From contig NZ_VJZK01000001.1 in assembly GCF_007109225.1 (NCBI RefSeq), forward strand, positions 124,001 to 188,000: a stretch of DNA of 64,000 bases, written 5' to 3'. Position numbers and translations under genes: made by a program. Below, one piece after another: positions 17,775-51,366 of this stretch. How positions within the stretch are numbered: the first letter of the stretch is position 1; the number at the start of each line of letters is the position of its first letter. Under the pieces are notes generated by a model. That model saw only the letters and a list, made by a program, of their open reading frames with translations, had not been told where the DNA came from and searched no databases. This DNA is from Flavobacterium sp. GT3R68 (lineage in GTDB: Bacteria > Bacteroidota > Bacteroidia > Flavobacteriales > Flavobacteriaceae).

Positions 17775-19070
17775 TTATGTTCTTTTATCAATAAATGTAA
17801 TTGGCTTACGGCTCATCGGAGTAAAAATGATTTTATTCAGCTCTTCGGAACTTACCAATTCCACTTTAGGCGTGACCCTTAATTTGGCCCTGAAATGGTC
17901 TTTAATGGATTCTAAAAAACCTTTATCTTCATTTTTAACAGCAATTTTAATCAGGATTTCATCGGTTCCCAAATCGTTAGTTGAAATTTCAATCACGTGG
18001 TTTTCCACTCCTTCAAAATACGATAATAAGTCATGCATCGCAGGTGGGTATAATGTGGTTCCCTTATATTTTATCATTTGTTGTTTGCGTCCCAATACTG
18101 GTCCCACGCGGGTAGTGTTTCTTCCGCAACCACAGACTTCATGGTGTAATTTTACGATGTCGCCGGTTTTAAAACGAAGTAAAGGCATTCCTTCAACTCC
18201 CAATGTAGTAATGGTCAATTCGCCGCTTTCGCCTTCTTGAACCGGTATATCATTCTCATCCAGTACTTCGGTAATTATCAGTTCCGGATGCTGATGCCCG
18301 CCGTGAAAAAACTCACATTCGGTAAAAGCAGTGCTCATTTCGGTCGAAGCATACGTCGAAAACAACTTAACATGCCATTTATCAGTAATTTTCTTTGCCA
18401 AAATACTTTGCGAAAAATCCTGGTTTCGCAGCGGTTCCCCAATACAAATTACACCTTCTACACTGGATGCATTGAAATCAATCTGATTGTTTTCGGCAAA
18501 CTCAATTAATTTCAAAAGGAAAGAGGGAACGGTAATCAGGTATTTCGGTCTGTATTTCAAAATGGAATCCCATTGCAATTCGGGAATGCCAGCACCTACA
18601 CGAATCACTCCGGCTCCTAATTTCCGCAAGCCAAGAAAGTATGCTAATCCAGCCATAAAACGCCTGTCCAAAGTGGTCATTAGCTGTACTATATCGCCTT
18701 TTTGGATTCCTGCGCAGGAAAATGAAATTGCCTCATTATAAGCCAATCGGTCCAGGTCACTATCGGTCAGGCCAAAGGTAACCGGGTCGCCCAAAGTTCC
18801 CGAGGTGGTAGCGTAATCAATTATTTTATCACGACTCACACAGAAAAAGGCATCGTTATGCTGCTGAAGGTCTGTTTTTGTGGTGGTTGGGACGTTTTGC
18901 AAATCCTCCAATGCCTGAATGGAATAGATATCAATATTTCCATTGGCAAACAATTTTTTATAATAAGGCGAATTTTTGCTTAAATACTGGAGTGTTTCCT
19001 GCATTTTCTGCTCTTGGAAGTGCTTGATTTCTGATGGAGCTGCTGTTTCTATGTCAGGGATCATACTCAT
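17775..19070 (-). CDS. AMP-dependent ligase of the phenylacetate-CoA ligase type
   Basis: A 431-residue adenylating enzyme of the PaaK-like group. The nucleotide motif DYATTSGTLGDPVTFGLT is at about residues 86-103; FSTYASTEMSTAF and RFKTGDIVKLH are the later core motifs. CGCGRNTTRVGPVLGRKQQM has the zinc-site-like cysteines seen in PaaK relatives. In flexirubin biosynthesis a ligase activates the aromatic starter (4-coumarate or a hydroxylated form) for loading on an acyl carrier protein; that role here is inferred from context. It overlaps the upstream gene by 4 bp (ATGA type) and is the last gene of the leftward operon. No clear terminator lies before the tRNA gene 45 bp further. Confidence 0.85.
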   Translation of the reverse strand: MSMIPDIETAAPSEIKHFQEQKMQETLQYLSKNSPYYKKLFANGNIDIYSIQALEDLQNVPTTTKTDLQQHNDAFFCVSRDKIIDYATTSGTLGDPVTFGLTDSDLDRLAYNEAISFSCAGIQKGDIVQLMTTLDRRFMAGLAYFLGLRKLGAGVIRVGAGIPELQWDSILKYRPKYLITVPSFLLKLIEFAENNQIDFNASSVEGVICIGEPLRNQDFSQSILAKKITDKWHVKLFSTYASTEMSTAFTECEFFHGGHQHPELIITEVLDENDIPVQEGESGELTITTLGVEGMPLLRFKTGDIVKLHHEVCGCGRNTTRVGPVLGRKQQMIKYKGTTLYPPAMHDLLSYFEGVENHVIEISTNDLGTDEILIKIAVKNEDKGFLESIKDHFRAKLRVTPKVELVSSEELNKIIFTPMSRKPITFIDKRT

Positions 19071-20728
19071 TTATTGGTTTTCATGCGGTTCAGATATCCC
19101 TCAATCCGGCGTTTTTCAGGCAAGGTGGTAATTTCTTTTGATAATGCTTTTTGGAACTGGGCCTCAGCGGCTTTATACCATCCCATTTCATAAAAATACA
19201 TTCCTGTTTTATAGTAAGGAAGCCAATAGTCGGGGTTAGCGGATTGGTACTGGTGGATGAATTCGGACTTTAAATTCTTCTTAGCGCTTGTTATTTTATC
19301 AAATTCCCGATCCAAAACCCGATATTTTTCATAATTTTTATACGCCTCTGTGTTAATGAAATCATCCTTTGGAATATTTAATTCCTTACTCCCTAAAACT
19401 ACAAAGCCTGTCGGTTTATCTCCGAAGATTTTATTCAGGTCGTACGCTATAAATTCGCCCAGCTGATACGGGTTTGACGATACCCACACTATCCTTTGTT
19501 CCGGTTTGAAAATTACCGAATGATGCGCCAATAACTGATTAAGTGCTTTTTCGTTGCCATACCCTATTTTCAAATTGTGCAGCCCTTCTCTGTTCCTGAG
19601 AATCTCTGCTATTTTCACCGGTGTCATTTTTTCGTTTTCGGCCAATAATTCATTCATTCTATCCAAACGGTATTTGGAATGGCTTTCCAGAATGTGCGTA
19701 GTATTTCGCTCATCGGATCTATAGACATCACTTTGGAAGTGATTGGTGCAAACTAATTGGTTGTTATTTTTTACCTCATAGACCCCGAAATTCTCAGGTG
19801 AAATTTCTATTAAAACTGCCTTTTTATCATTGGCACTACCAATCATAATTGATTCGGAGACAAACACCTGCTTGGATTTAGCAATAGCAATGGCTTCGTC
19901 AATTGTTGCGGCATACTGCAATATTTCGCGCGCGAGAATCGATATTGGCGTTTTGGCGATTAAAGGGATTTTGGATTTTCCGGCATTAATAGTCACGGTC
20001 AGCCCTTCTTTGTTCATTCCTGAAAGTACGCCAATCATTCCGCCCCAGCCCACGCTCATAAAAGGATAGCCTTTATCAGGCGTTACAAAGGAAATCATTT
20101 TGTCCTCCGCAAAAACATCGCCAGCATAAAAATCCATATTGCGCCCGATTAACAAGGACCCGTCTGCAGATTTATCGCCCCAAACCGCGAAAGATGAGCA
20201 GCCTACCAACTCCAGATCCTGTAGAGCGTGACCAATATCATGTGCGCCGTGAAGGTATAAAGTACGCAGATAATTGGGCGCGATGGCATCATATTCATCA
20301 GTGGTATATTGTGAAATACCATAAATCTCAGTTTGGTATTCTTCCGGCACATGCAGGTATAGTTTGCGATTGTACCATTTTAGGAACTGCCGCAGGATTT
20401 TTTGCTTGAATTTGGAAGGAATAATTTCCTTCACCCTCGAAAAAAAGACACTTTCCTGCTTATGAACCAAATTCTCCGCCACACTTCCTGTAATAAGGCC
20501 GAGTTGTAAGGCATCTCCGGAAACGTATAATTCCCAAAGCTGTTGCGGGTTCTTTATCAGATAGTTTTTGCCGGATGAGAACAGTGTATCCGAATGTTTG
20601 ATAGTGACAGGTATGTCTTGGTTGTAACCAATTATTTGAGGCGTATGATTAATAGACTTAGCAGTCCCGCACGAAATAAAAATCGTCAGGAGCACAAAAA
20701 AAGAAAGCATCTGAATTACTTTTTTCAT
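19067..20728 (-). CDS. Lipoprotein of the C45 / acyl-CoA:6-APA acyltransferase family
   Basis: A 553-residue exported protein. The signal ends at FIS-C20, a Bacteroidota lipobox. The catalytic domain follows with a candidate N-terminal nucleophile Cys177 in ELVGCSSFAVWG, then DGSLLIGRNMDF and GWGGMIGVLSGMNKEGLTVT, which are typical of the C45 autoproteolytic acyltransferase/hydrolase family (Ntn fold). The family makes or breaks amide bonds after self-cleavage before the Cys. A C-terminal part of about 110 residues resembles a TPR (NPDYWLPYYKTGMYFYEMGW). Its role in pigment making is not known; an acyl transfer or ester-forming role is a guess. It overlaps both neighbours by 4 bp. Confidence 0.8.
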   Translation of the reverse strand: MKKVIQMLSFFVLLTIFISCGTAKSINHTPQIIGYNQDIPVTIKHSDTLFSSGKNYLIKNPQQLWELYVSGDALQLGLITGSVAENLVHKQESVFFSRVKEIIPSKFKQKILRQFLKWYNRKLYLHVPEEYQTEIYGISQYTTDEYDAIAPNYLRTLYLHGAHDIGHALQDLELVGCSSFAVWGDKSADGSLLIGRNMDFYAGDVFAEDKMISFVTPDKGYPFMSVGWGGMIGVLSGMNKEGLTVTINAGKSKIPLIAKTPISILAREILQYAATIDEAIAIAKSKQVFVSESIMIGSANDKKAVLIEISPENFGVYEVKNNNQLVCTNHFQSDVYRSDERNTTHILESHSKYRLDRMNELLAENEKMTPVKIAEILRNREGLHNLKIGYGNEKALNQLLAHHSVIFKPEQRIVWVSSNPYQLGEFIAYDLNKIFGDKPTGFVVLGSKELNIPKDDFINTEAYKNYEKYRVLDREFDKITSAKKNLKSEFIHQYQSANPDYWLPYYKTGMYFYEMGWYKAAEAQFQKALSKEITTLPEKRRIEGYLNRMKTNK

Positions 20729-22257
20729 CGCTTATTTGCCAATTCAGTTGTGATTTTGTTCAACAGGTAATCTTTTCCTAAAATTTCAGAGCAGGTGACC
20801 ACTGCCCCAATAGTAACGCCCAAAACCCCATGCATATTGATGCTTTGCCCGGTCAGCAAAAGGTTTTCCAGTTTCGTTTTTGGCGAGATAAATGTCTTCA
20901 TCGGATTATTGGAATCTTTCACATAACCATATAAATTCCCATTATGACCACCGATATAATCCCGATAAGACAGTGGCGTCGACGTATGTACTGATTGGAT
21001 GCAATTTCTTAACCCAGGAAACTTTTTATCAATAACCTTCAGGAATGTTTCCTGTTTTTCCTGTTTGAACTTTTCATATTCCGCACCTCGATCACCTTTT
21101 TCTGAAGCTGTATTGGAGGTCTTTTCCCATTGCTGGAACTCATCAAATTTCATGTATGTAATCGCTGTAAGGCTTTCGGCCCAAACCTGATTTTCTGACG
21201 ACACATTCATGGACGCCATATACGCTTCAGGCCACGATTGCTGCGTATATTCATTTGCCATCCAGACTCTCTTGCTGTCGCTGAAATGGTAATAATTATG
21301 ATTTAAATATTTGAATGTCTCCGGTTTAAAAACAATATACAGACTAAATGCAGAAGGCAAGGGTTCCAAACTTTGAATCCTGCTGTAGAAAGATTTTCGG
21401 AATTTATCCTCTCCTATTAATTTTAACGTCGTTTTCGGCTCAATATTGGATATGAAAATATCACCAAAATATTCTTCGCCATCTTTAGTTTTTGCAGAAG
21501 CCAGTCTGTTGTTTTCAAACCCAAATGCTGTCACTTCTCTATGTTTAAAAATCTCCCCGCCGTATTTCCTCAATTGCTTGATCAGCTGTTTGGTAATTTG
21601 GCTTCCGCCCCGAATACACCGGTACGAACTCTGGATATAGGAATTCACAGAAAGCGCATGCACGTATAGCGGCGTCTTATCGGCAATTCCGGCATACAGA
21701 AAATTGGAACCCGCCAAGACCGCTTTCAATTTTTCATTGGAAGTCAATTCATCCAAATACGATTTGGCATTTATCGAAAGAATTTCGCTCTGATAACCCT
21801 CCCCCTGCTTCAGATTATATAGGGGAAATGAATCACAGGTATACATTATTTTTTCACAATACGATTTGATGGTTTCTTCATCATCCGGAAAAAAATGAAC
21901 CAATTGCTTAATGAAATTCTTATATCCCTGCGCATGCGGATATTCATTTTGATCATCATCAAAAGAAATAATATCAAAAGCATCCTCATCCATTTTTTTG
22001 AGTTTCAGGTTATCCATAATTCCGAGATATGAAAAATACTGATGCAGATTTTGCCCTTCGGAAAGTCCGCCTATATAATGGATTCCGGTATCAAAAATAG
22101 TTTTGTCACGTACAAAAGTCTGCAGATTACCCCCGTACTGATTGTTTTTTTCAAGAACACAGACGCTCTTTCCTTCTTTCGCAAGAATGATTGCCGAGAC
22201 TAAGCCTCCTAATCCGCTTCCAATAATGACAATATCGTATTTTTTCTTTCCTTCCAT
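20725..22257 (-). CDS. Phytoene-desaturase-like FAD oxidoreductase (first of two)
   Basis: A 510-residue flavoprotein. The N-terminal dinucleotide fold IIGSGLGGLVSAIILAKEGK (residues about 10-29) is followed by the linker VCVLEKNNQYGG, as in carotenoid desaturases and all-trans-retinol 13,14-reductase. The C-terminal part GQSINMHGVLGVTIGAVVTC is the family's FAD-binding end. Close relatives are common in flexirubin and aryl polyene clusters in Bacteroidota. No phytoene synthase is present in the window, so a carotenoid substrate is not supported; a polyene redox step is inferred. It abuts the MMPL transporter gene and overlaps the C45 gene. Confidence 0.85.
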   Translation of the reverse strand: MEGKKKYDIVIIGSGLGGLVSAIILAKEGKSVCVLEKNNQYGGNLQTFVRDKTIFDTGIHYIGGLSEGQNLHQYFSYLGIMDNLKLKKMDEDAFDIISFDDDQNEYPHAQGYKNFIKQLVHFFPDDEETIKSYCEKIMYTCDSFPLYNLKQGEGYQSEILSINAKSYLDELTSNEKLKAVLAGSNFLYAGIADKTPLYVHALSVNSYIQSSYRCIRGGSQITKQLIKQLRKYGGEIFKHREVTAFGFENNRLASAKTKDGEEYFGDIFISNIEPKTTLKLIGEDKFRKSFYSRIQSLEPLPSAFSLYIVFKPETFKYLNHNYYHFSDSKRVWMANEYTQQSWPEAYMASMNVSSENQVWAESLTAITYMKFDEFQQWEKTSNTASEKGDRGAEYEKFKQEKQETFLKVIDKKFPGLRNCIQSVHTSTPLSYRDYIGGHNGNLYGYVKDSNNPMKTFISPKTKLENLLLTGQSINMHGVLGVTIGAVVTCSEILGKDYLLNKITTELANKR

Positions 22258-25200
22258 TTAATTTTCTAAAACCAAAATAGCAGCCTCTTCGTGTGTTATG
22301 GTATAACCCAACGACAAGAAATGCTCCCTTAAAGCAAAATTATCCATTAATACAACCGTATGACACGCAGACATGTCCAACGCGTTTACTGTTGCGCCTG
22401 CATCAGAAACGAGCAGGGTATTCCATTTTTTATCGTTCCTTTCCAACGCAGTAAGATACTGAATATTTCTATTTTTTACAATATAATTTGTTTGGGCCAC
22501 ATCCCTTTTTTCGACATCTGAAAAGTAACTTTGTATTTTCCTGTTGGGTTGCTGTAATGCAAGAAGCACATCCAATTGCCCATAATCATTAGCCAAATGA
22601 AGAATTTTAGAATCCGCGGCCATATATGTATTCATTCTTAAATACAATTGCTTTTTATTTTCAAAATCAGCTTTAACCAACTGAACAATTTCATTTTCTT
22701 TGTATAAAAAACTCAAAAGCAATTTCTTCTTGAAATAGTTTTCGTCTTCTAATTCGTGTCTTACTTTTGAGAAATTCTCTTTAAAAAGACGGCTGATCTT
22801 TTTGGTTCTCTCTGAATATCCTTCTCCAAAACGGTTGTCGGAAGAAGAAATCCTATCCCCAATTTTTACCGTAATTTTCTCGTCATAAATGATATGATCG
22901 CCTTTCGGAAGCGCTTCAGAATTACCATGGATGTAAATCGGCAGAATATCAATATTGAATTGTTCCGCCAGATAAAACGCCCCTTTGTGGAACCGTTTGA
23001 CTGTATTGTCATGCGAACGAGATCCTTCAGGAAAAACCATCAGCGAATAGCCTTCCTTCACTTTTTGTCGCAAATGTTCCACTCCGCCTTCCAGACCGTG
23101 GGTAACCGGATAAAAGCCGGCCAACTTTACAGCACGCCCGAAAAAAGGAGAATTATATACCCAGTCATTGACCAAAAAAATAATTTTCGGGCTCAGCATT
23201 CCGACCGCTAAAGTATCGAGGAATGAGGTGTGATTCGAAATAATGACCGCCGATTTTTCGAAAGTCTCGTTGTTAGGATTCAGCACTTTTTTGGTTAAAT
23301 ACGGATTGGAATACAACACCGATTTCATGAATAACGACATTGTCTTTCTGAACCATTTCATTTTCGCCTCCTTATTGACAGGCACTATTTTCATGACCAG
23401 TTCCCCAAATACCGATAGTAAAAATCCGCCAAAGCCGTAGTAGATAAAAGAAAGTGTCGAATGAACCAGTAATCGCAGCGTTATAGGGGATTTTCCATTT
23501 TTAACGCGATTGAAAAAACAGATTTTAAAGAGTATCGGGTAGAAAATGAATGTGATCAGTAAAGCTGCAAAAACACCTATCAAAGAAACCGAAGAAATAG
23601 ATTTAAGCGCTGGGTGCCGGGCAAAAATCAACGCACCAATAGCAAGAACCGTGGTTAATGCTGCCAGCAATATCGAAGTTCTATACGTCGCCATTTCGCT
23701 TTTTCCATACGTATATTCCTTTTGCAAGGCGCTGGTCATAAAAATACTGAAGTCGACACCATGTCCAAAAATCAAGGTACAGACAATCGTACTGAAAATA
23801 TTCAGTTGGATATCGAAAATTCCCATGATTCCAGCCGTCACAACACCGGTAATCACAATAGGAATTACGCTGATAACAACGAGTTCGACTTTCCTAAAGA
23901 ATACAAGCAAAATCAGGATTACTGCTACAAAAGAGTAATTCACCAGACTGTTGAAATCGTTCCGAAGTTCCCCTAAAAAGGTTTCATTCATCTGCTGGCG
24001 GTCTATCGCGACAATTTCCTTTTCCTTCTCGATAGTGCGGACAAAAGCGTCACGTTGTTTATCCGATACTTTGACTACGGACGAAATCGTATAAAAACCA
24101 TTTTTACCAGTCACAAATTCGTTTAGGAAAAGTGCTTTTACTTTAGCATATTCATCAAAGCCGATTGGATAAAAATCCTTATCAAGCAAATCGTAAAATC
24201 CCTGATGTGTCGCAGGTTTGAAACCGATTGCATTTCCGCTTGCAACTAATTCGGAGTAGACTGATTCCTTTTTTGCGCTAGTCCAAAAAGAATTCCATTT
24301 TGCAATTTTTTCCTTCTGTGCTTCTTTTGACAGGACCACACCACCTACCGAGCTGAAGTTCAATATTTCACCTTTGCCTTTCTTGCCCTTTAAATTCCGG
24401 AACAGCGCATTGTTTTTGTCCAATACTTCTTCCATCGAATTGCCATACGAAGCCAAGTAAATGGATTTTGAAGTGAGATTGGTAGTACTTTCTAATTTGC
24501 TCTCGGCCATTTTAATTTCAGTAGGAACAAAGTTCAATTCCGAAAGATTGTTATTGAATTTTACTTTCCCAAAAGTGAAAAAGCTGACAATAATCACGAT
24601 ACAACTCAAAGCAATCAAAACCTTATTGTTTTCGAATGAAAAACCAGCGGCCCGGTCCAAAATATTTTTTTTCTTCTCCTGATGCTCTTTAGGTTTGTAG
24701 AGGTGCGGAATGATTAACAGCGAAAATAAAGCCGACACCACAACACTGATAGCAGCAAAAATTCCCAAATCTTTTAAAGCTTCTGAATTTACAAACAACA
24801 GACATAAAAATGCCAGCGCCGTCGTAGTACTACTCATGATTAATGGCATTGTAATGTCTTTATACAAGGTTTTTACATCGCTGTTGTGTTTGTAATGCGT
24901 CAGGATATGGAGCGAATAATCGATGGTGACTCCCAAAAGAACGGCGCCGATACTCAATGAAATTGCCGAAATGGTCCCTTTTAAAAAATACAGGCTGCCA
25001 ATGGCAAACAACGCTCCAAAAATCGTGGGAATAAAAATAATAATCGGGACTAATAATTTTCGGTAGAACAAAATCAATATCAGCATCAGCGCACTCAACG
25101 AGATCAAAACTGTGGTGATGATGTCGTGCTTGATTTGCTTGGCATTGGCTACCGCAATTAACGAAGAACCAAAATAATCAATGGAAGCCTTACCTTTAAA

Positions 25201-25934: not shown

Positions 25935-27110
25935 TTATTTCAAGGATTTTTTCGAAAACGAAAGCAATAAATAACTGGTAATCCCAAAAAGAAATGCCGC
26001 CAACAAAGCTAAAACAAAGCTTCCGACAACGTATTGGGTCAAATTATTTTTAACGAGGTCAAAGGTAGTTTTATTCTTTGAAATTAGCACCGCATCGGAA
26101 GATACAAAAAGAGCTCCGGTTTGTAATGAACCATAAATAATCAGTGGAATCATCGGCGGGATACTGATGTTCGAGAAAGTAAAGGCCAAAACTTTATTCC
26201 ATCGCAACAAAACGGCCAGAAAAAGGACAATAACCGTCTGAAAACCCCAAAACGGCGCTATCCCGACAAAAACACCCAAAGCAATGGAGGCCGCTTTTTT
26301 AGAATTGGAATCGGTACTTGCCAGAAGATTTTCAGTTAAGAATTGCCTAAAGTTCTTTTTTTTCAAACTTCGGAACAAATCTCTCGGTTTGACATAGAAA
26401 AGAGTCATAATTACCAAAACCGTATTCAAAATACTAATTCGGGTAAAATCGCGGAACGGACGGAAATGGCTGACCCTTTCGTTGGGGTCATAGAGAATCT
26501 GAATTGGAATATTTTTTACTGCTACGCCATTCCAGGCGGCGCGGACAATTACTTCAATTTCAAATTCGAATTTTTTGGTAAAGAACTTTTTCGGAAGGTA
26601 TTGCAATGGATACAACCGATAACCGGATTGGGTATCATCCAATCTAATATTGGTTTCAAACCAAAACCAAAAATTGGAAAAGGCATTTCCAAAACTGCTT
26701 TTTTTGGGAATCCCATCCTGGTTCATACTTCGGTTCCCGATAAGCAAAACGGGTGATTTTTCTGCTTCCAAAGCATCAAGAAATCCCGGAATATCCTCCG
26801 GATAATGTTGTCCATCGGAATCTATCGTTAATGCATAGTCATACTGCAAGTCTTTGGCCTTCTTAAAACCTTCCCGAAGCGCATTGCCTTTGCCTGCATT
26901 TTTTGGGAGATGGATTTGGGTAATATCGGGATATGAACTTAGGATTTCTTTAGTAGTATCGGTCGAGCCATCATTAACCACAATAACGTTACATGTGTAT
27001 TGCAACACGCCGTCAATTACGCGCTTTAGTGTGTTATGGTTATTATAGGTAGGGATAATAACACATGCTTTTATTATAGCAATTCTATCGGCAATGGGGA
27101 CCGCATTCAT
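25935..27110 (-). CDS. Glycosyltransferase family 2 fused to DUF2062
   Basis: A 391-residue two-domain membrane protein. The N-terminal part (about 1-225) is a GT-A fold: IPTYNNHNTLKRVIDGVL, VVNDGSTD and the metal motif TIDSDGQH are all visible. The C-terminal part (about 255-385) has several hydrophobic helices, with AASIALGVFVGIAPFWGFQ and NISIPPMIPLIIYGSLQTG, the signature of DUF2062. Such fusions are annotated in flexirubin and aryl polyene clusters. The likely role is transfer of a sugar or other group at the membrane; the acceptor is unknown. Confidence 0.88.
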   Translation of the reverse strand: MNAVPIADRIAIIKACVIIPTYNNHNTLKRVIDGVLQYTCNVIVVNDGSTDTTKEILSSYPDITQIHLPKNAGKGNALREGFKKAKDLQYDYALTIDSDGQHYPEDIPGFLDALEAEKSPVLLIGNRSMNQDGIPKKSSFGNAFSNFWFWFETNIRLDDTQSGYRLYPLQYLPKKFFTKKFEFEIEVIVRAAWNGVAVKNIPIQILYDPNERVSHFRPFRDFTRISILNTVLVIMTLFYVKPRDLFRSLKKKNFRQFLTENLLASTDSNSKKAASIALGVFVGIAPFWGFQTVIVLFLAVLLRWNKVLAFTFSNISIPPMIPLIIYGSLQTGALFVSSDAVLISKNKTTFDLVKNNLTQYVVGSFVLALLAAFLFGITSYLLLSFSKKSLK

Positions 27111-28607: not shown

Positions 28608-28625
28608 GTTAGTATTTCAATATTA

Positions 28626-39923: not shown

Positions 39924-39925
39924 AT

Positions 39926-41497: not shown

Positions 41498-41518
41498 GTT
41501 TTTCATAATAATAAAGCG

Positions 41519-42481: not shown

Positions 42482-44137
42482 TTAATTTACTTTGGTTTCC
42501 TTGAAATGTCGTGTTTTATCTTCTCTTTTCTTATGTACAAAATCGCCCCAGGTAGCCTGGTCTTCGGCATCATATATCCGAATTTGCTGATTTGGATCCT
42601 GTATCAGTAATTCTTCTGATTTGCAATTTAAAACCCGTGCTGCGGCTTCTATCCCTGAATAGGTTGCCCCGGTCACGCCATGCGATAAAGTGCTGGCACC
42701 ACAAAGAAACAAATTACTGATTTCGGTTTTATTTTTATATGCAAAAGGCCCTACCTGCCGTAATGTTTTTTCGGTTCCGTATACGTTACCGCGGGTTGTA
42801 TTTACGTAAAACTGATTTGTTTTTGGCGTCCCTAATTCGGCCTGAACAATGTTTTGTCTGGCGCCCGGAATAATTTTTTCGACACTGTTCAGTAACTTTT
42901 CAATGATTCTTGTTTTGAAAGCATCGTATTCCGGACCATGATAATCATCACTATGATTGAAGTCTTTAAAACTGTCATAATCCACATAGGTGACCACTTC
43001 AAAATTGTGATATCTTCCGTTGAAACTTATCGGATCTTTTAAAGTAGTGCAGCTCAGGAAAAAGGCTGGGAATTCATCACCTTCAAGGATATTTCCTTTG
43101 GTAAGGGTTTCAAAATGTTCATCAATATTCTCGGTTTTGAAATTCCAGATATTCCCGGAATCGATCCCTGCTGCGGTCACATCCATATCCAGCGTCAGAA
43201 ACAAAATCAAGGAGGTTACCGAATACGTTGTTTTATCGAGTTTCTGTTTTAATTTTTTACTGATATTTTCGGGGCCGATTAATTGGAGGTAAGTCATTGT
43301 CGGATCTGCATTTGAAATCACGTTTTTGGCTAAAATTTGAGTTCCATCCGATAATTCCACCCCGAGGACTTTGCTGTTTTGGACTAAAATCCGGGTTACC
43401 GATTGTTGTGTCCGTACCAGCCCACCGTAACTTTTTATCTTGTTGGTCATTACTTTAACGATGCCGGCTCCGCCTCCCATTGGATAAAAACCGCCGTCAA
43501 AATAATGATTCATAACAGAGCAATGCACCGGGAAACTCGCTTTAGAGGGAGGTAATCCGTGATCGCCACATTGCGCGTTGAGGATTCCTTTTAAGACGGG
43601 ATCTTTTATATGCCAATCGATGACCCTTTTCAGACTGAATAATGCAAATTTTCCAAAATGTTTGGTTCGGAACGGAACGGTGATGTTTTGCCAAAAGCCT
43701 TTAAGTTTAGGGATCAAACTCAATTCATCGCACACCTTCTGAATTAAGTTCAGATATTCTTTTATGTTTTTTTCTTCTTTGGGAAACTGTTCAATTAATC
43801 GGTTTTTGAGGTTCTCTATTCCGGCAGGATAATCAAATCTCTGATTGTTAATAATGCAATGATCGTAGGCATTTTTGTTCATCCTAAAAAAAACAAGATC
43901 GTTTGCCACACCTAAGCCTTTATACAATTCGCTGGTGGACTGCCCTTCGTCAAGAAGACCAATATAATGAACTCCGGGACTGAAACGCTGGCCGTTTAAG
44001 GTAAAACTATGACTCCAGCCTCCGGGAACGGTATGTTGCTCCAGGACCAAAACTTTCTGACCGGCTTTTGCCAGACAAAGGGCCGCTGCTAATCCGCCTG
44101 CTCCCGAACCAATGATAATCGTATCAAATTCTTCCAT
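42482..44137 (-). CDS. Phytoene-desaturase-like FAD oxidoreductase (second of two)
   Basis: A 551-residue flavoprotein with IIGSGAGGLAAALCLAKAGQ (residues about 8-27), the linker VLVLEQHTVPGG, and the C-terminal FLCGASTLSHGVTGATYSG. The family is carotenoid desaturase/retinol saturase. It differs clearly from the other cluster member (20725-22257), so the two are likely not redundant. No carotenoid genes are in the window; a redox step on the polyene or on the aryl ring is inferred. The gene starts 54 bp after the acyltransferase gene. Confidence 0.85.
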   Translation of the reverse strand: MEEFDTIIIGSGAGGLAAALCLAKAGQKVLVLEQHTVPGGWSHSFTLNGQRFSPGVHYIGLLDEGQSTSELYKGLGVANDLVFFRMNKNAYDHCIINNQRFDYPAGIENLKNRLIEQFPKEEKNIKEYLNLIQKVCDELSLIPKLKGFWQNITVPFRTKHFGKFALFSLKRVIDWHIKDPVLKGILNAQCGDHGLPPSKASFPVHCSVMNHYFDGGFYPMGGGAGIVKVMTNKIKSYGGLVRTQQSVTRILVQNSKVLGVELSDGTQILAKNVISNADPTMTYLQLIGPENISKKLKQKLDKTTYSVTSLILFLTLDMDVTAAGIDSGNIWNFKTENIDEHFETLTKGNILEGDEFPAFFLSCTTLKDPISFNGRYHNFEVVTYVDYDSFKDFNHSDDYHGPEYDAFKTRIIEKLLNSVEKIIPGARQNIVQAELGTPKTNQFYVNTTRGNVYGTEKTLRQVGPFAYKNKTEISNLFLCGASTLSHGVTGATYSGIEAAARVLNCKSEELLIQDPNQQIRIYDAEDQATWGDFVHKKREDKTRHFKETKVN

Positions 44138-44191: not shown

Positions 44192-45073
44192 CTATTTTTT
44201 CAATTTATTCCAAAAATCGAAATAATTAAACCACTGCAGTGGGTATTTTTTTAATATAGATTCCACACTTTCAATGTACACCCCGAGCAATGCTTTTTCG
44301 TCCCGATGTTTCGTGTGTGCTTCCCTTGCGTAAAGATGGTAATGTAAATTGGGTTCTTTCATCACGTACACAAAAACTACAGGTACTTTTAAACGGGATG
44401 CAATTAAAAATGGCCCGGCAGGAAAATCTGCTTCCTCACCTAAAATCGGGGATCTCAGACATTTGACTCCCGGAAAATACCGGTCACCGGTAAAACAAAT
44501 CAGTTCATTGTTTAATAGCGCATTGTTGATATCGTATATATGTGACAAATCATCTTTGACAATGATGAATTTGATTTTTGATTTTTTCGAAATACTTTCC
44601 AGGTATTCTTTGATGGAGGTATGTTCATTATCAGTGGTAACCAAATTAATCTGGCAGTCGAAATCAATCTCTCCAAAAAAATATTCAGCAATTTCAAAAT
44701 TCCCAACATGCGCACTAATCAATATACCACCTTTTTTTTCGGCGAGCAATTTATGCAAAATATCCACTCCATCGAACTCGTAGGTGAATCTATCTCTCAT
44801 CCCTACAGAAATCGCTGTTCGGTCTATAATCGTCTGCCCATAGGTGTAGTAACTCTTATAAACCATCATCTTCGATTTCAGATAAGAATTCCCCAGCCTG
44901 TGATAAAAATAATAAAAAATAGCCCTGTTGCTCTTTCTCAGGAATAAAAAATAATAGGAAGCTACAAAATACAAAACGACATACGACGTTTTTATTCCTA
45001 ACTTCCTAATACAAAAAATAAATAATTTATAGCCTAGCAGTGTGCCTTTAGACTTTCCGTCCCACTCACTCAT
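44192..45073 (-). CDS. LpxL/HtrB-type acyltransferase
   Basis: A 293-residue membrane-associated acyltransferase. One N-terminal helix (TSYVVLYFVASYYFLFL) and the active motif SAHVGNFEIAEYF (HX4E of the HtrB group) are visible, with FTGDRYFPG later. LpxL-type enzymes transfer acyl chains from ACP. In this cluster it may join the polyene acyl chain to the resorcinol or another lipid; general lipid A acylation is less likely given the location. It is 4 bp from the second ACP gene. Confidence 0.85.
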   Translation of the reverse strand: MSEWDGKSKGTLLGYKLFIFCIRKLGIKTSYVVLYFVASYYFLFLRKSNRAIFYYFYHRLGNSYLKSKMMVYKSYYTYGQTIIDRTAISVGMRDRFTYEFDGVDILHKLLAEKKGGILISAHVGNFEIAEYFFGEIDFDCQINLVTTDNEHTSIKEYLESISKKSKIKFIIVKDDLSHIYDINNALLNNELICFTGDRYFPGVKCLRSPILGEEADFPAGPFLIASRLKVPVVFVYVMKEPNLHYHLYAREAHTKHRDEKALLGVYIESVESILKKYPLQWFNYFDFWNKLKK

Positions 45074-45077: not shown

Positions 45078-45329
45078 TTATCCCTTAGCTATTATTTTAT
45101 TTTCAATCAAATCATAAAAATCCTGAAAAGTAGCAATTCCAACAAAATCGGCTTCACCCAGTTTTACTTTGAAGTTCATTTCGACAGTTACCACCAAATC
45201 TACATAATCCAGACTGTCTAATCCTAAAGTATCCTTTAAGTTTGCGTCGGGGGCAATGGTATCACCGTCTACTTCAAATTCCTCTACTAAGAAACCGTTG
45301 ATTGTTTCTATAATTTCTGCTTTATTCAT
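45078..45329 (-). CDS. Acyl carrier protein (second of two)
   Basis: An 83-residue acyl carrier protein with the phosphopantetheine Ser39 in DTLGLDSLDYVDLVV. The acidic helix after it is in place. It stands between the KS gene 45339-46559 and the LpxL-type acyltransferase gene, so it may be the donor for that acyltransferase. It differs from the other ACP at 33489-33746 in the residues around the Ser. Confidence 0.93.
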   Translation of the reverse strand: MNKAEIIETINGFLVEEFEVDGDTIAPDANLKDTLGLDSLDYVDLVVTVEMNFKVKLGEADFVGIATFQDFYDLIENKIIAKG

Positions 45330-45338: not shown

Positions 45339-46559
45339 TTATACTTTTTTTACTATTAATGCCGAATTGGTCCCCCCGAATCCGAAGGAATTCGACAAAA
45401 ATATATCAATTTTTTTGTTTATCGTGTTCCGCACCAAATTAATTTTCTTAGAGTCTTCATCCGGATTTTCCAAATTAATGTTGGGCGCTATGAAAGAATG
45501 CTGCATCATCAATGTGGAATAAATTACCTCGCTTGCGCCCGCCATCCAACATTCGTGGCCGGTCATTGACTTGGTCGAACTCACCGGAGGGTTGCTTTCG
45601 CCAAAAATTTCAAAAATGGCTTTTGCCTCATTGGTATCCCCAACCGGCGTGGAGGTTGCATGGGCATTGATATAATCGATATCCGATGGCTGTAATCCTG
45701 CAAAATCCAAAGCACGCTTCATTGCTGTGGCAGGTCCTTCGACATTCGGCGTGGAAATATGTCCGCCATTGGAAGAAAAACCATAGCCAATTACTTCGGC
45801 AACAATAGGCGCTCCTCTTTTTACCGCGGACTCGTAGCTTTCTAAAATCAATGTCGCTCCGCCGCCGCTTGGTATCAATCCGTCTCTCGCCGCATCAAAA
45901 GGTCGGGAAGCTTTGGTTGGATTCGCTTCGTTAGGTGAAAAAACCCCCAAACCATCAAAACTGCTCATTGCGTATTTATTGATTTCTTGTGCTCCGCCAC
46001 AAATTACCGTATCCTGCAGTCCATTTTTGATTAAAAAATAACCAAGTCCTATCGAATGTGAACCACTCGCACATGCTGCACTCACGGTAAGATTAATTCC
46101 CCGCAATCTGAAAATTGTGGAAAGATTCATCGTTACAGTCGAATTCATCGATTTAAAAATCGCACCGGACCCAATCAGCGCAGTGTCTTTTTTCTCTCTG
46201 ATAATATCGGTAGCTTCAATCACGGCCATGGAAACACTATCGTTTCCGTACATAATCCCTACTTCATTGTCATCAAAAAAACTTTCATCAATATTCGCAT
46301 TTTTCAAGGCCTCAATCGTAGCCATATAGGCATATTCTGTTTCTTCACCAATGCTGATGCGTTGTCTTCTGTTTAGTAACTTTTTTAAGTCAGGCCTTGG
46401 TACCATTCCCGTTAAGGCAGAGCGGAAGCCAAATTCTTTTCTTTCTTCATCATAGATTATTCCTGATTTGCCTTCATAAAGAGATTCTTTGACCTCTTCG
46501 AGTGAAGTTCCAATACAGGAATAAATCCCCATTCCCGTAATTACTACTCTTCTATTCAT
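45339..46559 (-). CDS. Beta-ketoacyl-ACP synthase, FabF/FabB-like
   Basis: A 406-residue KAS I/II enzyme, with Cys163 in VSAACASGSHSIG, His in INAHATSTPVGD and His in MTGHECWMAGASE. The last part SNSFGFGGTNSALIVKK is typical of FabF. It would elongate an acyl chain on the ACP encoded 9 bp later. It is the most FabB/F-like of the ketosynthases in the cluster. It lies 15 bp from the fabG-type gene. Confidence 0.92.
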   Translation of the reverse strand: MNRRVVITGMGIYSCIGTSLEEVKESLYEGKSGIIYDEERKEFGFRSALTGMVPRPDLKKLLNRRQRISIGEETEYAYMATIEALKNANIDESFFDDNEVGIMYGNDSVSMAVIEATDIIREKKDTALIGSGAIFKSMNSTVTMNLSTIFRLRGINLTVSAACASGSHSIGLGYFLIKNGLQDTVICGGAQEINKYAMSSFDGLGVFSPNEANPTKASRPFDAARDGLIPSGGGATLILESYESAVKRGAPIVAEVIGYGFSSNGGHISTPNVEGPATAMKRALDFAGLQPSDIDYINAHATSTPVGDTNEAKAIFEIFGESNPPVSSTKSMTGHECWMAGASEVIYSTLMMQHSFIAPNINLENPDEDSKKINLVRNTINKKIDIFLSNSFGFGGTNSALIVKKV

Positions 46560-46574: not shown

Positions 46575-47306
46575 TTATGAATATATTCCCCCGTTTATGT
46601 TTATGATTTCACCTGTGATATAGCCGGCTTTTTTTGAAACCAGAAAACTCACCAGATCGGCTACTTCTTCGGCTTCGCCAAAACGGTTGGCCGGAACCAG
46701 TTTAATTAATTCCTTTTCGTCCAGCTGACTGGTCATATCGGTACGGATGAAACCCGGCGCGACTGCATTTACGGTAATATTCCGTTTTGCCACTTCCTGA
46801 GCCAATGCTTTGGTAGCGGCAACAAGAGCGCCTTTTGCAGCTGAGTAATTGGTTTGTCCTGCGGTTCCTTTTACTCCGGAAACCGAAACCATATTAACAA
46901 TTCGGCCATATTTATTGCGCAGCATTTTTTGTATAAGGAAGTTCGTGACATTAAAGAAACCGTTCAGGCTGGTATTGACTACGTCAGTCCAATCCGACGG
47001 TGTCATCCACATGAACAGTCCGTCCTTGGTGATGCCGGCATTATTGACAATAACTTCAACAATAGCCTCCGGATTAGCATCCTGCCACTGCGTCAATACT
47101 GTTTTTACCTCATCAAAATCGGCTACGTTGAATTTTATGATTTCTCCGGTCGCTCCTTTTTTAATGACTTCCTCCAGCGTTCTTTCGGCAGCTTCCTTGT
47201 TGGATTGGTAATTAATCAAAATATGGTACTGGCTATCTTCGGCTAATTTTTGACAAACCGCACTTCCGATACCTCTGGACCCACCTGTTACTAAAGCACA
47301 CTTCAT
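46575..47306 (-). CDS. 3-oxoacyl-ACP reductase (FabG-type)
   Basis: A 243-residue short-chain dehydrogenase. The cofactor site is ALVTGGSRGIGSAVCQKLA, NNAG is present, and the catalytic Ser-Tyr-Lys is seen in MVSVSGVKGTAGQTNYSAAKG. It reduces the 3-oxo group after each condensation in polyene synthesis. A separate housekeeping fabG is expected elsewhere. It lies between the WG-repeat gene and the KS gene. Confidence 0.94.
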   Translation of the reverse strand: MKCALVTGGSRGIGSAVCQKLAEDSQYHILINYQSNKEAAERTLEEVIKKGATGEIIKFNVADFDEVKTVLTQWQDANPEAIVEVIVNNAGITKDGLFMWMTPSDWTDVVNTSLNGFFNVTNFLIQKMLRNKYGRIVNMVSVSGVKGTAGQTNYSAAKGALVAATKALAQEVAKRNITVNAVAPGFIRTDMTSQLDEKELIKLVPANRFGEAEEVADLVSFLVSKKAGYITGEIININGGIYS

Positions 47307-47342: not shown

Positions 47343-48461
47343 TTATTTTTGAAACAATTCGGCGTTTTCAAACCACTGGTCTCCCAACAGTTTTCCGTCC
47401 GGTAATAAAAAACCCCATTCTCCAATGCTGTTTTTCACTCGGGCGACACCGCCGACAAATCCTTTTTCCTGTTTGCTGAAAATGGCAAAACCGGTCGATG
47501 TAATTTGAAATTTTTTTGCAATTATTACTTTCCCGCTTTCATTTATGAAGCCCCAATTTTCATCTTTTACAGGTGCGTAACCGTCGGCGCTGAAAATTTC
47601 GGCATCATTGTAAGTAGGTTCGACTACCATCTCTCCTTTGCGATTAATATAACCCCATTTTCCTTTTACTGAAACAGGCGCCAGATTATTTGAAAATGCT
47701 TTTGCCTTATCGAATTTTGGCTCAATTATCCAATTACCATTTAAATCGATAAAACCTATTTTCTTGTTCTTTTTGGCATAAGTCAACTCTTGTGTGTTGA
47801 AATCCCATATTTTATCCACACCTTCCAACGCAGTGAATTTGCCATTGATAACCAGACCAAAAGTTTCTCCTTTTTTTGCCCAGGCAGTATTTTTGTGATA
47901 GTTCCCTATGTCATCGTAGATGGCCTCCACGATAACTTTTCCGGTGTTATCGATAATCCCCCATTTATCCTTGTTTACTACTCTTGCATAATTGCCTTCA
48001 AACGATTTGATGAGTTGGTAGGTCGGTTCCAAAATAATTTGTCCCTTCGGATTGATTAATCCTATCTTTTCGTTTTGTCGTATAAACGCAACCCCGCTCT
48101 CGAAATCAAATACTTTATCCGACGCAGGCGTTTTCACGGTTTCCCCTTTTGAATTGATGTACATCCATTGTCCATTTTTTTCCACAACGCAAATCCCGCT
48201 GTTGAAATATTTTGCATTTGAAAATGTAGCCGGAATGGCCCACTCCCCTGTGGTATTGATGAATCCCCACTTGCCATTTTCCTCTGCTGCCGCCAACCCT
48301 TCCGAAAAGTTTTTGGCTGTTTTGAATTTAGGTGTAATTGCAAATGATCCGTTTTTTGAGATGTATCCAAATTTACCGTCTTTTCGGACTAAGGCCAATT
48401 CTTGAGCCGCAACCAACTGGCAAAGTAATACCAGTAAAATAACTATTTTTTTCATTTTCAA
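47343..48461 (-). CDS. Secreted WG-repeat (KWG-type) protein inside the pigment operon
   Basis: A 372-residue protein. A signal peptide (MKMKKIVILLVLLCQLVAAQ) is followed by about ten WG/KWG repeats of about 35 residues, such as NGKWGFINTTGEWAIPATF, KWGIIDNTGKVIVEAIY and KGKWGYINRKGEMVVEPTY. WG repeats form a propeller-like beta fold that usually binds proteins or surfaces; no enzyme motif is present. The gene lies 5 bp downstream of the tyrosine ammonia-lyase gene and 36 bp upstream of the FabG-type gene, so it is transcribed with the pigment genes. Its role there is unknown. Confidence 0.88.
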   Translation of the reverse strand: MKMKKIVILLVLLCQLVAAQELALVRKDGKFGYISKNGSFAITPKFKTAKNFSEGLAAAEENGKWGFINTTGEWAIPATFSNAKYFNSGICVVEKNGQWMYINSKGETVKTPASDKVFDFESGVAFIRQNEKIGLINPKGQIILEPTYQLIKSFEGNYARVVNKDKWGIIDNTGKVIVEAIYDDIGNYHKNTAWAKKGETFGLVINGKFTALEGVDKIWDFNTQELTYAKKNKKIGFIDLNGNWIIEPKFDKAKAFSNNLAPVSVKGKWGYINRKGEMVVEPTYNDAEIFSADGYAPVKDENWGFINESGKVIIAKKFQITSTGFAIFSKQEKGFVGGVARVKNSIGEWGFLLPDGKLLGDQWFENAELFQK

Positions 48462-48466: not shown

Positions 48467-49993
48467 TTATATTGATTCTGCCATTAAGTGCTCTTTCACT
48501 TTTTGGATAAAAGGATACATTACCTGATCCTCCTTAAATACAGGGATAATCGCTCTCACCTGATCGTACATTTCTCGGGTCACCGAAGAAATTCGGTCTT
48601 TATAATCCAAAGCATCAATTGCCTGAACGATGGTAATCATTTCGATAGCCAGTACTTCAAAAGCATTTTCGATTACTTTTCCGGTGATAACCGCAGCATT
48701 GGTTCCCATGCTCACAATATCCTGATTGTCATTGTTATTCGGGATACTGTGCACGTACATCGAATTGGACAGCATTTGGTTTTCGGCAGTGGTGGATGTT
48801 GCGGTGAACTGAACGCCCTGCATTCCAAAATTGAATCCCAATACACCCAGATTTACAAATGGAGGCAGGATTTCATTTAATTTAGAATTCAGCAAATAAT
48901 TCAATTGACGCTCCGCCAACATCGTTAATTTGGTTATCACCAATTTCAATTTGTCCATTTCCAAAGAAATATAATCGCCATGGAAATTACCGCCATGATA
49001 TACCTGCTGGGTTTTCACATCCACAATCGGATTATCGTTCGCAGAGTTGATTTCGTTTTCCAAAACGGCAGCCACATTTTTTACCGTATCCAGAACAGGT
49101 CCTAAAATTTGAGGAACACAACGTAAAGAATAATATTCCTGAACTTTTTCCTTGAAAATATCTTCACTGTTCTCACCGGTATAGAGATGTTCTTCGCGTT
49201 TTCTGACCAATTTGCTATCGGTCAGGTTATCACGCATTCTTTGCGCGACTTGTTGTTGGCCAAAATGACGCTTGGTATTGTTTAATTCTGCCGACAAATG
49301 ATCATCATATGCCTGAACGATTTCGTTGATCGCACAAGAACATTTAATGGACCAATCCAGTAGTTTTTCGGAGTTGTGTACATTCACGATACCAATTCCG
49401 GTCATTACCGAAGTACCGTTCATTAATGCCAACCCTTCACGGATTTCAACCTGGATAGGTTGTAGATTTTCTATTTCAAAAACTTCTTTAGTTGCTTTTC
49501 TTTCTCCTTTGTAAAAGACTTCTCCTTCGCCTATCAGCACTAAAGCCAAATGGGCCAACTGGACCAAATCCCCACTCGCACCTACACCTCCATGTTCAAA
49601 AATTAACGGAGTAATATCTCTGTTAATCAATTCCTTCATTAAATGGATAAGCGAAGGATGTACTCCTGAATTACCCAAAGAAAGCGTGTTCAGACGTGCT
49701 AAAATTGCCGATTTAACATTGACCGGGCTTAGTGGTTTTCCGGTTCCTGAGGAATGGCTTCGTATTAAATTGTATTGCAGCTGTAATTGGTGTTCGTCTT
49801 TAATGCGGTATTGGGCCATTGGGCCGAATCCGGTATTTACACCATAAATAACTTTATTTCCTGAAAATTCCTTTAAAAAATCGAAGCTTTCGTGAACCCG
49901 TCTTTCAACTGTATCGCTGATAACTACTTTCTTTTTTTTGAAAACAATATCCCCAAAATCATTTAAGCTTAAATATTCATTTATTGTACCCAT
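48467..49993 (-). CDS. Tyrosine ammonia-lyase (HAL/PAL/TAL family)
   Basis: A 508-residue aromatic amino-acid lyase with the MIO triad Ala139-Ser140-Gly141 in GGVGASGDLVQL and the active-site Tyr50 in VIYGVNTGFG. The segment NLIRSHSSGTG in the specificity region is the same as I remember for the tyrosine ammonia-lyase of Flavobacterium johnsoniae, a flexirubin-cluster enzyme; overall similarity by eye is high. The product, 4-coumarate, is the starter of the aryl polyene. The first gene of the leftward operon, with a promoter at 50072-50097. An exported or other histidine-specific role is unlikely. Confidence 0.9.
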   Translation of the reverse strand: MGTINEYLSLNDFGDIVFKKKKVVISDTVERRVHESFDFLKEFSGNKVIYGVNTGFGPMAQYRIKDEHQLQLQYNLIRSHSSGTGKPLSPVNVKSAILARLNTLSLGNSGVHPSLIHLMKELINRDITPLIFEHGGVGASGDLVQLAHLALVLIGEGEVFYKGERKATKEVFEIENLQPIQVEIREGLALMNGTSVMTGIGIVNVHNSEKLLDWSIKCSCAINEIVQAYDDHLSAELNNTKRHFGQQQVAQRMRDNLTDSKLVRKREEHLYTGENSEDIFKEKVQEYYSLRCVPQILGPVLDTVKNVAAVLENEINSANDNPIVDVKTQQVYHGGNFHGDYISLEMDKLKLVITKLTMLAERQLNYLLNSKLNEILPPFVNLGVLGFNFGMQGVQFTATSTTAENQMLSNSMYVHSIPNNNDNQDIVSMGTNAAVITGKVIENAFEVLAIEMITIVQAIDALDYKDRISSVTREMYDQVRAIIPVFKEDQVMYPFIQKVKEHLMAESI

Positions 49994-50071
49994 TCAACAG
50001 TATCGTTTTTACAGAATTATAAAATTAATTCCGTTTTTTTATTTAAAAATTATGTGGTTAATTTGAACTCG

Positions 50072-50097
50072 CAAATGTAATACATTCTCCATAACAA
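50072..50097 (-). promoter_or_regulatory. Putative promoter of the flexirubin operon
   Basis: On the minus strand TTG (50097-50095), 15 bp, TACATTTG (50079-50072). The -7 element is an exact match; the spacing is a little shorter than the usual 17-23 bp. It lies 79 bp before the tyrosine ammonia-lyase start, in a 113-bp divergent gap shared with the halogenase-like gene. Confidence 0.5.
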
Positions 50098-50106
50098 AAA
50101 GAAAAC

Positions 50107-51366
50107 ATGATAAAGGAATTTGTTGATGTACTGATTATCGGCGCAGGTCCTTCGGGATGCGTCTCTTCCTGTTATTTACACAATAATGGCGTCAAGGTAA
50201 AAGTGGTCGAAAAAACCAAATTCCCAAGACTGGTCGTAGGCGAAAGCCTAATCCCACGAGTGATGGATCATTTTGATGAAGCGGGTCTGCTTCCTGCCTT
50301 GAAAGCGATGAATTTCGAAAAAAAATGGGGAGCACGTTTTATTCGCGGTGAAGAAATATGTGTTTTTGATTTCAGTAAAAAATTTGGCGAAGGCTGGGAT
50401 TGGACCTGGCAAGTTCCCCGGGCTGACTTTGACAATACGCTGGCACAGGAAACCATCCGTAAAGGAGTTGATTTAGAATTTGAAAGCGAAGTTGTTTCAG
50501 TAGCTTTCGAAGGAAAAAATTCAATTACGGTAGTGAAAGATGTAAATGGGGTTGCCAAAGAAATTCACGCCAAATTCATCATTGATTCCAGTGGATATGG
50601 CCGGGTTTTACCTCGTTTATTGGATTTGGATACGCCTTCCAAATTAGACCCGCACTCTTCGATTTTTACGCACGTAAACGACATCAATCGTCCTGACGGA
50701 GAAGAAGGAACGTTAATTTCGTTCGATATCCTGGAAACCGAAGTTTGGCTGTGGGTAATTCCGTTCTCCAATGGAAATACAAGCCTTGGTGTGGTCGGCC
50801 CGACAACATTCATTAATTCTCTTTCAGAAAATAAGGATAACGCCGAAGCATTGAAAAATGCGATTCAGCTGTCTGATTATTATATCAAGCGATTTGGCGG
50901 AGTCGAATTCATGTTTGAACCTGTCAAGTTAGAAAACTACTCCCGTTCCGTAAAACAAATGTACGGTGATGGATTTGCGCTGACCGGAAACAGTTCGGAA
51001 TTTTTAGATCCGGTTTTCTCGTCCGGAGTAGCGTTTGCTACCGAATCAGGTATGCTGGCAGCCAAATTAATCCACAAAGAATTAAATGGCGTAACTGTGG
51101 ATTGGGAGAAAGATTTTACTGAGTACATGCGCCGGGGGATTGGGGTCTTTACAACTTATGTGAAAGAATGGTACACCGGGAATCTGCAGACTTTGTTTTT
51201 TCATCAGCCTGAAAACCCGGAGGTTAAGGAGAAAATATGTGCTGTCTTGGCAGGATATGTCTGGAATCAGGAAAATCCTTTTGTAAAAAAACATGATAAT
51301 GTCATTAAAAATATGGCGCACCTGATTAATCAGGAAAAAGAGCATAAAACAAAAACCAGCGAATAG
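50107..51366 (+). CDS. FAD-dependent halogenase-like oxidoreductase
   Basis: A 419-residue flavoprotein, read divergently from the main operon. The FAD site is IIGAGPSGCVSS (residues about 9-20), followed by VVEKTKFPRLVVGESLIPRV, the GES-LP motif of phenolic halogenases. KKWGARF (about residues 72-78) places a Lys in the position of the halogenase active-site Lys, and WLWVIPF (about 214-220) fits the WxWxIP motif that distinguishes halogenases from monooxygenases. Chlorinated flexirubins are known, so ring chlorination is a reasonable guess; a hydroxylase or geranylgeranyl-reductase-like role remains possible. Its 3' end carries the first part of a terminator hairpin. Confidence 0.75.
   Translation: MIKEFVDVLIIGAGPSGCVSSCYLHNNGVKVKVVEKTKFPRLVVGESLIPRVMDHFDEAGLLPALKAMNFEKKWGARFIRGEEICVFDFSKKFGEGWDWTWQVPRADFDNTLAQETIRKGVDLEFESEVVSVAFEGKNSITVVKDVNGVAKEIHAKFIIDSSGYGRVLPRLLDLDTPSKLDPHSSIFTHVNDINRPDGEEGTLISFDILETEVWLWVIPFSNGNTSLGVVGPTTFINSLSENKDNAEALKNAIQLSDYYIKRFGGVEFMFEPVKLENYSRSVKQMYGDGFALTGNSSEFLDPVFSSGVAFATESGMLAAKLIHKELNGVTVDWEKDFTEYMRRGIGVFTTYVKEWYTGNLQTLFFHQPENPEVKEKICAVLAGYVWNQENPFVKKHDNVIKNMAHLINQEKEHKTKTSE

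Follow-up and report, generated by a model that had tools for sequence, protein, structure and literature searches.

Flexirubins serve as a chemotaxonomic marker of the Bacteroidota, and 1,234 clusters for them have been predicted across 2,680 genomes (PMC10734526). The clusters of Flavobacterium johnsoniae (BGC0000838) and Chitinophaga pinensis (BGC0000839) are named as MIBiG entries in PMC9248904, PMC11885536 treats LolA2 and LolB2, and PMC11237725 describes a flexirubin cluster together with a KOH test that was positive, its available passages giving no gene-by-gene roles. Tyrosine ammonia-lyase (TAL) and 4-coumarate ligase activities have been shown for FlxA and FlxY of C. pinensis (PMC3992019); in the excerpts of the literature that we covered, enzymes have been shown only for the two opening steps towards the polyene and for the resorcinol step. 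The locus described here lies in a 64,000-nucleotide stretch of Flavobacterium sp. GT3R68 (contig NZ_VJZK01000001.1, positions 124,001 to 188,000; hereafter the window, to which all coordinates refer), from a genome of 3.06 Mb in 43 contigs. It is a further example of the known Flavobacterium flexirubin cluster and, as a find, ordinary; DarH, DarG, LolA2 and LolB2 are already named by NCBIfam.

The open reading frame (ORF) listing gives 33 leftward genes on the minus strand (g01 to g33, numbered by position; 17775-49993), many of which overlap or follow one another within a few bases, and beyond these a single divergent, halogenase-like gene on the plus strand (g34; 50107-51366). A sequence-only reading of this DNA had counted 32 leftward genes; the run and the divergent gene are real, and the number is 33. 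The run is near-gapless as that reading had it, the widest intergenic gap being 90 bases (between 38967 and 39058). All 34 genes have stop-free translations, and a tRNA-Ala (17655-17729) follows immediately past the cluster end.

Products were named by Pfam and NCBIfam scans using the curated NCBIfam cut-offs (Pfam only for the genes at 27978, 30452, 33489, 35935, 37211 and 45078). Eight products exceed the cut-off of a flexirubin or dialkylresorcinol model: FlxY, a 4-coumarate CoA ligase (g01, 17775-19070; NF053551, 735.7 bits, cut-off 520), LolB2 (g10, 29235-29867; NF053540, 264.1, cut-off 60), LolA2 (g11, 29833-30462; NF053544, 270.8, cut-off 125), the BtrH-related acyltransferase DarH (g21, 37972-38967; NF053550, 527.5, cut-off 300), DarG (g22, 39058-39462; NF053545, 205.8, cut-off 170), DarB (g25, 40364-41506; NF053539, 667.8, cut-off 550), the ketoreductase FlxB (g31, 46575-47306; NF053542, 413.3, cut-off 340) and the TAL FlxA (g33, 48467-49993; NF053541, 902.9, cut-off 700). 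Because these eight cut-offs are passed and the gene order is common to Flavobacterium relatives, the identity of the cluster is not a chance result, and its description as complete is borne out. Our confidence is high that the locus is a complete Flavobacterium cluster for flexirubin, with the pathway, the ester-forming role of DarH and the ring structure predicted below.

Proposed pathway and gene products

FlxA would convert tyrosine to 4-coumarate, which FlxY would activate with CoA; the later steps are those that we infer from the gene families. A type II synthase using acyl carrier proteins (ACPs) would elongate the 4-coumaroyl starter to an aryl polyene, and its parts are all present, as judged by Pfam and NCBIfam families and active-site motifs: two ACPs (g15, 33489-33746; g29, 45078-45329; both PF00550), three ketosynthases (g14, 32283-33479; g17, 34365-35504; g30, 45339-46559; all PF00109/PF02801), FlxB, and hot-dog dehydratases, one of FabA/FabZ type (g07, 27601-27969; PF07977 over cut-off) and two FabZ-like (g23 and g24, 39462-40363; weak FabZ matches under cut-off). 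The ketosynthase at 45339 is FabB-like, its best NCBIfam match being KAS I (390.8 bits, under the cut-off of 630). The catalytic cysteine motif is kept in every aligned sequence of g14 (34), g17 (35) and g30 (33).

The ketosynthase at 32283 would work with an inactive partner, g13 (31222-32313; PF00109), whose profile matches KS II structures and which lacks the cysteine in 13 of the 14 motif variants printed (24 of 34 rows). This fits a chain-length factor, for which ApeC beside ApeO offers a precedent (PMC8253772, PMC8358021). A further protein, g16 (33748-34362), matches ketosynthase chain 6kxd by profile (E 0.0018), and its alignment has no ketosynthase cysteine motif; comparison with the g13 profile gives a probability of 0.4%, yet a collinear alignment, and g16 is weakly assigned as a short degenerate ketosynthase-like N-terminal half. 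The sequence-only reading had listed a free ketosynthase half; as a correction, the catalytic cysteine is missing from two ketosynthase-like proteins, g13 and g16, both likely inactive subunits.

DarB and DarA would form the 2,5-dialkylresorcinol, which DarH would most likely esterify with the polyene. The product would reach the outer membrane by way of the acyltransferases, the MMPL exporter, the ABC pair, LolA2 and LolB2. These include an MMPL/RND exporter fused to an acyltransferase (g04, 22258-25923; PF03176, PF01553), an LpxL-type acyltransferase (g28, 44192-45073; PF03279) and an ABC transporter permease and ATPase (g19 and g20, 35935-37966; PF12698, PF00005). Most of the remaining genes also fall in type II synthase, transport or envelope families. 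The run further holds a family 2 glycosyltransferase with DUF2062 (g05, 25935-27110; PF00535, PF09835), two small outer-membrane beta-barrel proteins whose copy number differs among relatives (g08 and g09, 27978-29222; PF13568), a protein of the polysaccharide deacetylase family (g12, 30452-31228; PF01522), a 4HBT thioesterase (g18, 35511-35960; PF13279), a C45/AAT family acyltransferase-hydrolase lipoprotein (g02, 19067-20728; NF040521 and PF03417 over cut-off) and a WG-repeat protein with a signal-peptide-like start (g32, 47343-48461; PF14903, 8 stretches). Two flavoproteins resemble carotenoid desaturases or isomerases (g03, 20725-22257, and g27, 42482-44137; both PF01593), the similarity of g03 to CrtD and CrtISO lying far under the cut-offs.

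At E ≤ 0.01 Pfam gave no family for 27122-27604, 29235-29867, 33748-34362, 39058-39462, 39462-39923, 39926-40363 or 41519-42421; NCBIfam names two of these (29235, LolB2; 39058, DarG), and those at 39462 and 39926 show the weak FabZ similarity. The domain calls of the sequence-only reading held for TAL, CoA ligase, three ketosynthases, ketoreductase, dehydratases, two ACPs, DarB and the exporters, as they did for the C45 lipoprotein, the WG repeats, BtrH_N and the two desaturase-like flavoproteins (Pfam/NCBIfam). It had also listed DarA with DarB; DarB is confirmed, and g26 (41519-42421) is a DarA candidate by its position and a flavodoxin-like N-terminal part only.

The AlphaFold model of DarG is confident in its C-terminal half, predicted to be Cro/CI-like helix-turn-helix (residues 69-134, predicted local distance difference test [pLDDT] score mostly near 90). 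Structural re-alignment of this part gave 6rnz (Z 10.3, root-mean-square deviation [rmsd] 2.3, 65 aligned) and SinR, 3qq6 (Z 10.3, rmsd 1.7, 64 aligned), a Z near 10 on so small a helical domain calling for caution. Most of the 50 re-alignment rows are Cro/CI-type helix-turn-helix proteins; some are epoxidase or dioxygenase enzymes that match within the aligned part. Foldseek found nothing at E ≤ 0.001 (best match, E 8.6e-3), and a profile search of the PDB by sequence nothing under E 0.2. Going by its model, DarG may be a regulator, or may use the fold for another purpose. The small protein g06 (27122-27604) is predicted to be all-helical (pLDDT 89) with an N-terminal hydrophobic segment; its fold search gave nothing at E ≤ 0.001, a TPR protein and 14-3-3 proteins being the best matches, and its PDB profile search nothing under E 0.2.

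The name DarG is also borne by a macro domain antitoxin distinct from the pigment-cluster protein. A DarT/DarG toxin-antitoxin pair of this kind lies in the cluster of Flavobacterium psychrophilum DSM 3660 (L133:14502-16191), between the ABC ATPase and darH genes.

Conservation in relatives and a proposed resorcinol block

Relatives were retrieved with DarH. This gave 80 named loci, the best of 581, with 75 exceeding 20 kb in length, and among named genomes the closest DarH proteins are those of Flavobacterium humi (87%) and F. enshiense (85%). Stretches, mostly of 40 kb, were fetched from 30 genomes; two were dropped before counting, G033 with a weak DarH relative only and G023 with a lone DarH, which left 28 clusters. 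Each of these was reached through DarH, so that its own count of 28/28 arises by construction.

All 28 hold g17, g19-g26, g28, g29 and g34; g06, g07, g10-g16, g18, g30, g31 and g33 are in 27, g03-g05 in 26, the C45 gene g02 in 25, and FlxY and the WG gene in 24. Some of the absences (Sphingobacterium, G084, G168, G172) reflect a stretch that ends too early or a relocated gene; the WG gene is also absent from 9 of the 55 named loci that, by a loose rule, extend to its place. The barrel genes vary (g08 in 15/28, g09 in 9/28), and g27 occurs in 4. In all 75 long named loci g17-g22 and g24-g26 are present in unchanged orientation. Gene order is constant among the Flavobacterium clusters, including F. 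johnsoniae CI04, F. humi and F. enshiense; the F. psychrophilum cluster has the same order with foreign genes inserted, the Chryseobacterium and Epilithonimonas clusters show inversions, and in G157 the halogenase-like gene stands at the opposite end.

The sequence-only reading had regarded several genes as unexplained extra members. For the most part this does not hold, because the C45, WG, BtrH-like and first desaturase-like genes, the ketosynthase halves and both small genes are in 24 to 28 of the 28 clusters and are regular members. The second desaturase-like gene, g27, is the sole optional one among them. The comparison sorts out, with DarB, a resorcinol block of DarH, DarG, the ABC pair and the dehydratase-like gene at 39462; beside it stand the halogenase-like, C45 and WG genes and the gene at 27122 as regular members, with g27 and the methyltransferase gene flxJ as options, and this sorting shows which knockouts would be informative.

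In a survey of 395 genomes of the phylum, the hit lists of FlxA, DarH and DarB were compared by eye. Hits over cut-off number 33, 31 and 30 genomes, respectively; the DarH genomes all lie within the FlxA genomes, and the DarB genomes all within the DarH genomes. The 31st DarH genome, G227, has a DarB of 518.7 bits against the cut-off of 550. FlxA occurs without DarH in two genomes, G154 and G438, which with G227 were among nine further genomes whose stretches were fetched. In G154 no DarB rises beyond general KAS III similarity, and g19-g23, g25 and g26 were not seen in the fetched stretch of its cluster. This co-occurrence of DarB and DarH, and the G154 cluster in which those genes were not seen, suggest a separable resorcinol block that includes DarH.

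BtrH-type proteins transfer acyl groups from carrier proteins. The name of the DarH model, NF053550, includes "acyltransferase", and one cysteine and one histidine in the motifs examined are kept in 33/33 DarH sequences. DarH is most likely the ester-forming enzyme that joins polyene to resorcinol. The same ester might instead be made outside the cytoplasm by the C45 lipoprotein, with DarH acting otherwise in resorcinol handling: the C45 model is named autoproteolytic acyltransferase/hydrolase, the printed variants (25 of 30 rows) retain its GC(S/T) nucleophile motif, and the gene is present in 25/28 clusters. It is, however, kept in G154 and G438, whose fetched clusters showed no resorcinol block, it was not found in an Epilithonimonas stretch that has DarB and DarH, and DarH, unlike C45, follows DarB across the 395 genomes. 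We consider this alternative unlikely.

Several points weigh against DarH as the ester-forming member of a resorcinol block with DarA. A DarB-like protein in G438, at 498.9 bits 51 bits under the cut-off, occurs without DarH, so the pairing is imperfect. A lone DarH relative in G023 (L177-L178; 69% identity) is left unexplained by an ester role; no other cluster gene was matched in the 40 kb read from this genome, which is a single contig of 2.6 Mb with 99% completeness. No Pfam or NCBIfam model names g26 as DarA; it lies beside DarB in the gene orders compared, and in a profile search it hit a chain called "putative trp repressor binding protein" (E 1.5e-4).

A Cupin_8 gene (L149:11198-12070) lies between the C45 and first desaturase-like genes in the Hanstruepera cluster, and of the 39 fetched genomes whose stretches were searched 8 have a relative of it, Hanstruepera included; the ORF and gene listing of the window's cluster has no Cupin_8 gene. 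Next to the cluster, 51384-51977 encodes a small protein that begins like a signal peptide and falls in no Pfam family, matched in stretches of 14 of the 28 relatives. Beyond it, 53180-60226 is one leftward open frame of 2348 codons, and two Flavo-1 small RNAs lie outside the cluster (1546-1634 and 8152-8218).

Predicted tailoring of the ring and the polyene

The best lead from the cluster is the question of a ring halogen. The product of g34 (PF04820 over cut-off) has 3nix as its closest solved chain (E 5.7e-142), followed by 3e1t, which we take to be CndH, and others named halogenase. It holds the catalytic lysine at the CndH position, as well as WxWxIP and FxxPxxSxG, motifs of flavin-dependent halogenases. 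Among 33 aligned orthologues FxxPxxSxG (as FLDP(V/I)FSSG) and GESL are kept in all and WxWx(I/V)P in 30; the lysine is present in every variant printed (26 of 33 rows). One of the 28 DarH-bearing clusters with the gene is from Sphingobacterium, and 4 of the 9 further genomes have it (G453, G499, G529, G154). No copy was seen in G227, G306, G438, G469 and G588, several of which have a short stretch or scattered genes.

A FlxJ-like methyltransferase (scores of at least 283 bits) occurs in the stretches of 11 of the first 30 genomes and 4 of the later 9; the one tested reached 430 bits for the FlxJ family, whose cut-off is 560. With one relative's protein as query, none was found in the window's genome. 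Three of the 80 named loci carry such a gene, all Flavobacterium (L037, plus L044 and L071, in which the gene is truncated where the locus ends), so that its state varies within the genus. Decay of flxJ was considered for some Flavobacterium and rejected, since the partial matches of L044 and L071 merely run off the locus ends.

With FlxJ not found and the halogenase motifs kept, we predict a ring that is unmethylated and perhaps chlorinated, the halogenase-like enzyme probably chlorinating the ring or a precursor. Against the methylation part it counts that the empty FlxJ search, made with a single protein, is weak evidence of absence. As to chlorination, the protein could be a flavin monooxygenase or reductase acting on polyene or resorcinol without halogenation. 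The name of 3nix, the solved chain nearest to it, is simply Flavoprotein/dehydrogenase, and the gene is in all 28 clusters, whereas flexirubins differ in methylation and chlorination (PMC3992019, in the text available). This alternative has a substantial chance, if one somewhat short of even; what opposes it is that the window's protein and nearly all orthologues retain the lysine at the CndH position, WxWx(I/V)P and FxxPxxSxG. Among the papers listed for flexirubin and chlorine none holds both; of those listed for chlorinated flexirubin or halogenase only PMC11187115 has flexirubin, with the terms in separate contexts, and the available text of a Dyadobacter paper (PMC9606717) mentions neither halogen nor DarH.

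Two facing boxes, TTAATTTG and CAAATGTA (50058-50079), lie 6 bases apart between flxA and the halogenase-like gene, with one mismatch to TAnnTTTG, which we take as the promoter -7 consensus. When up to one mismatch is allowed, 19 of 25 flxA/halogenase gaps hold such boxes, while 200 shuffles give 1.2 on average and 8 at most; when none is allowed, 7 of the 25 still hold them and 0 of 20 other divergent gaps do. As the flxA/halogenase gaps are related sequences, these counts are not independent. The idea that facing boxes are special to the cluster was rejected, since with up to one mismatch they are also common in other, longer divergent gaps (9/20).

Of the 75 long named loci, 18 have the second desaturase-like gene. 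Its distribution takes 11 changes on a tree built from eight core proteins (110 tips, 12 genomes represented twice), where 200 shuffled labellings need 22 on average and never fewer than 18, and is thus patchy yet partly follows descent. By similarity, its product may isomerize or desaturate the polyene; PDB matches of g03 and g27 did not distinguish a desaturase from an isomerase. A broader and rather doubtful proposal would make the divergent halogenase-like gene a core gene in Flavobacteriales, ring chlorination being ancestral and FlxJ methylation a lineage option; the strain's flexirubin would be chlorinated and unmethylated, g27 would add an optional change to the polyene, and the facing promoters would pit halogenation against production of the polyene.

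A separate carotenoid locus is located on contig C42 of the window's genome (L207:46-2743), where genes for a phytoene desaturase (CrtID family, over cut-off), a phytoene/squalene synthase family protein and a hydroxylase-family protein are adjacent. The strain might on this account owe its color to carotenoid alone, with the flexirubin cluster silent. All 34 cluster genes are, however, open frames, and the promoter-like boxes between both transcripts are conserved, and we regard a silent cluster as very improbable.

Comparison with known clusters

The aryl polyene cluster of Escherichia coli resembles that of the window in its two ACPs, a ketosynthase with chain-length factor, a further ketosynthase, two dehydratases, a ketoreductase, LolA- and LolB-like proteins, an RND exporter, acyltransferases and a thioesterase; its gene table lists a methyltransferase and neither a dialkylresorcinol gene nor a TAL (PMC8253772, as excerpted). 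Azoarcus sp. BH72 makes arcuflavin, a polyene and dialkylresorcinol pigment like that expected here, and shares LolA, an exporter and acyltransferases. A BtrH-like gene, already listed in its dialkylresorcinol cluster in 2014, and an ABC transporter stand beside darA/darB as in the window, where darA is a candidate; its starter comes from a chorismate-utilizing enzyme and its genes form separate loci, whereas the window has a TAL and a single run (PMC3949708, in the portion available). That paper was the only one found that contains two of the topics flexirubin, BtrH, WG repeat, tryptophan halogenase and carotenoid isomerase.

C. pinensis (BGC0000839) has, like the window, FlxA, FlxY, the ketosynthase, ketoreductase and dehydratase set, export genes, DarB and DarA, the last as a candidate in the window (Schoner et al. 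2014, PMC3992019). By the published description, of which part was available, its polyene and resorcinol genes form two clusters where the window has one run, and its pigment carries a methionine-derived methyl group, whereas no FlxJ was found here.

The F. johnsoniae cluster was compared through strain CI04. That strain lacks g27 and has two further small ORFs in the run, and its small barrel proteins are 36 and 45% identical to those of the window; apart from g27, order and orientation are the same, with protein identities of 42-86%.

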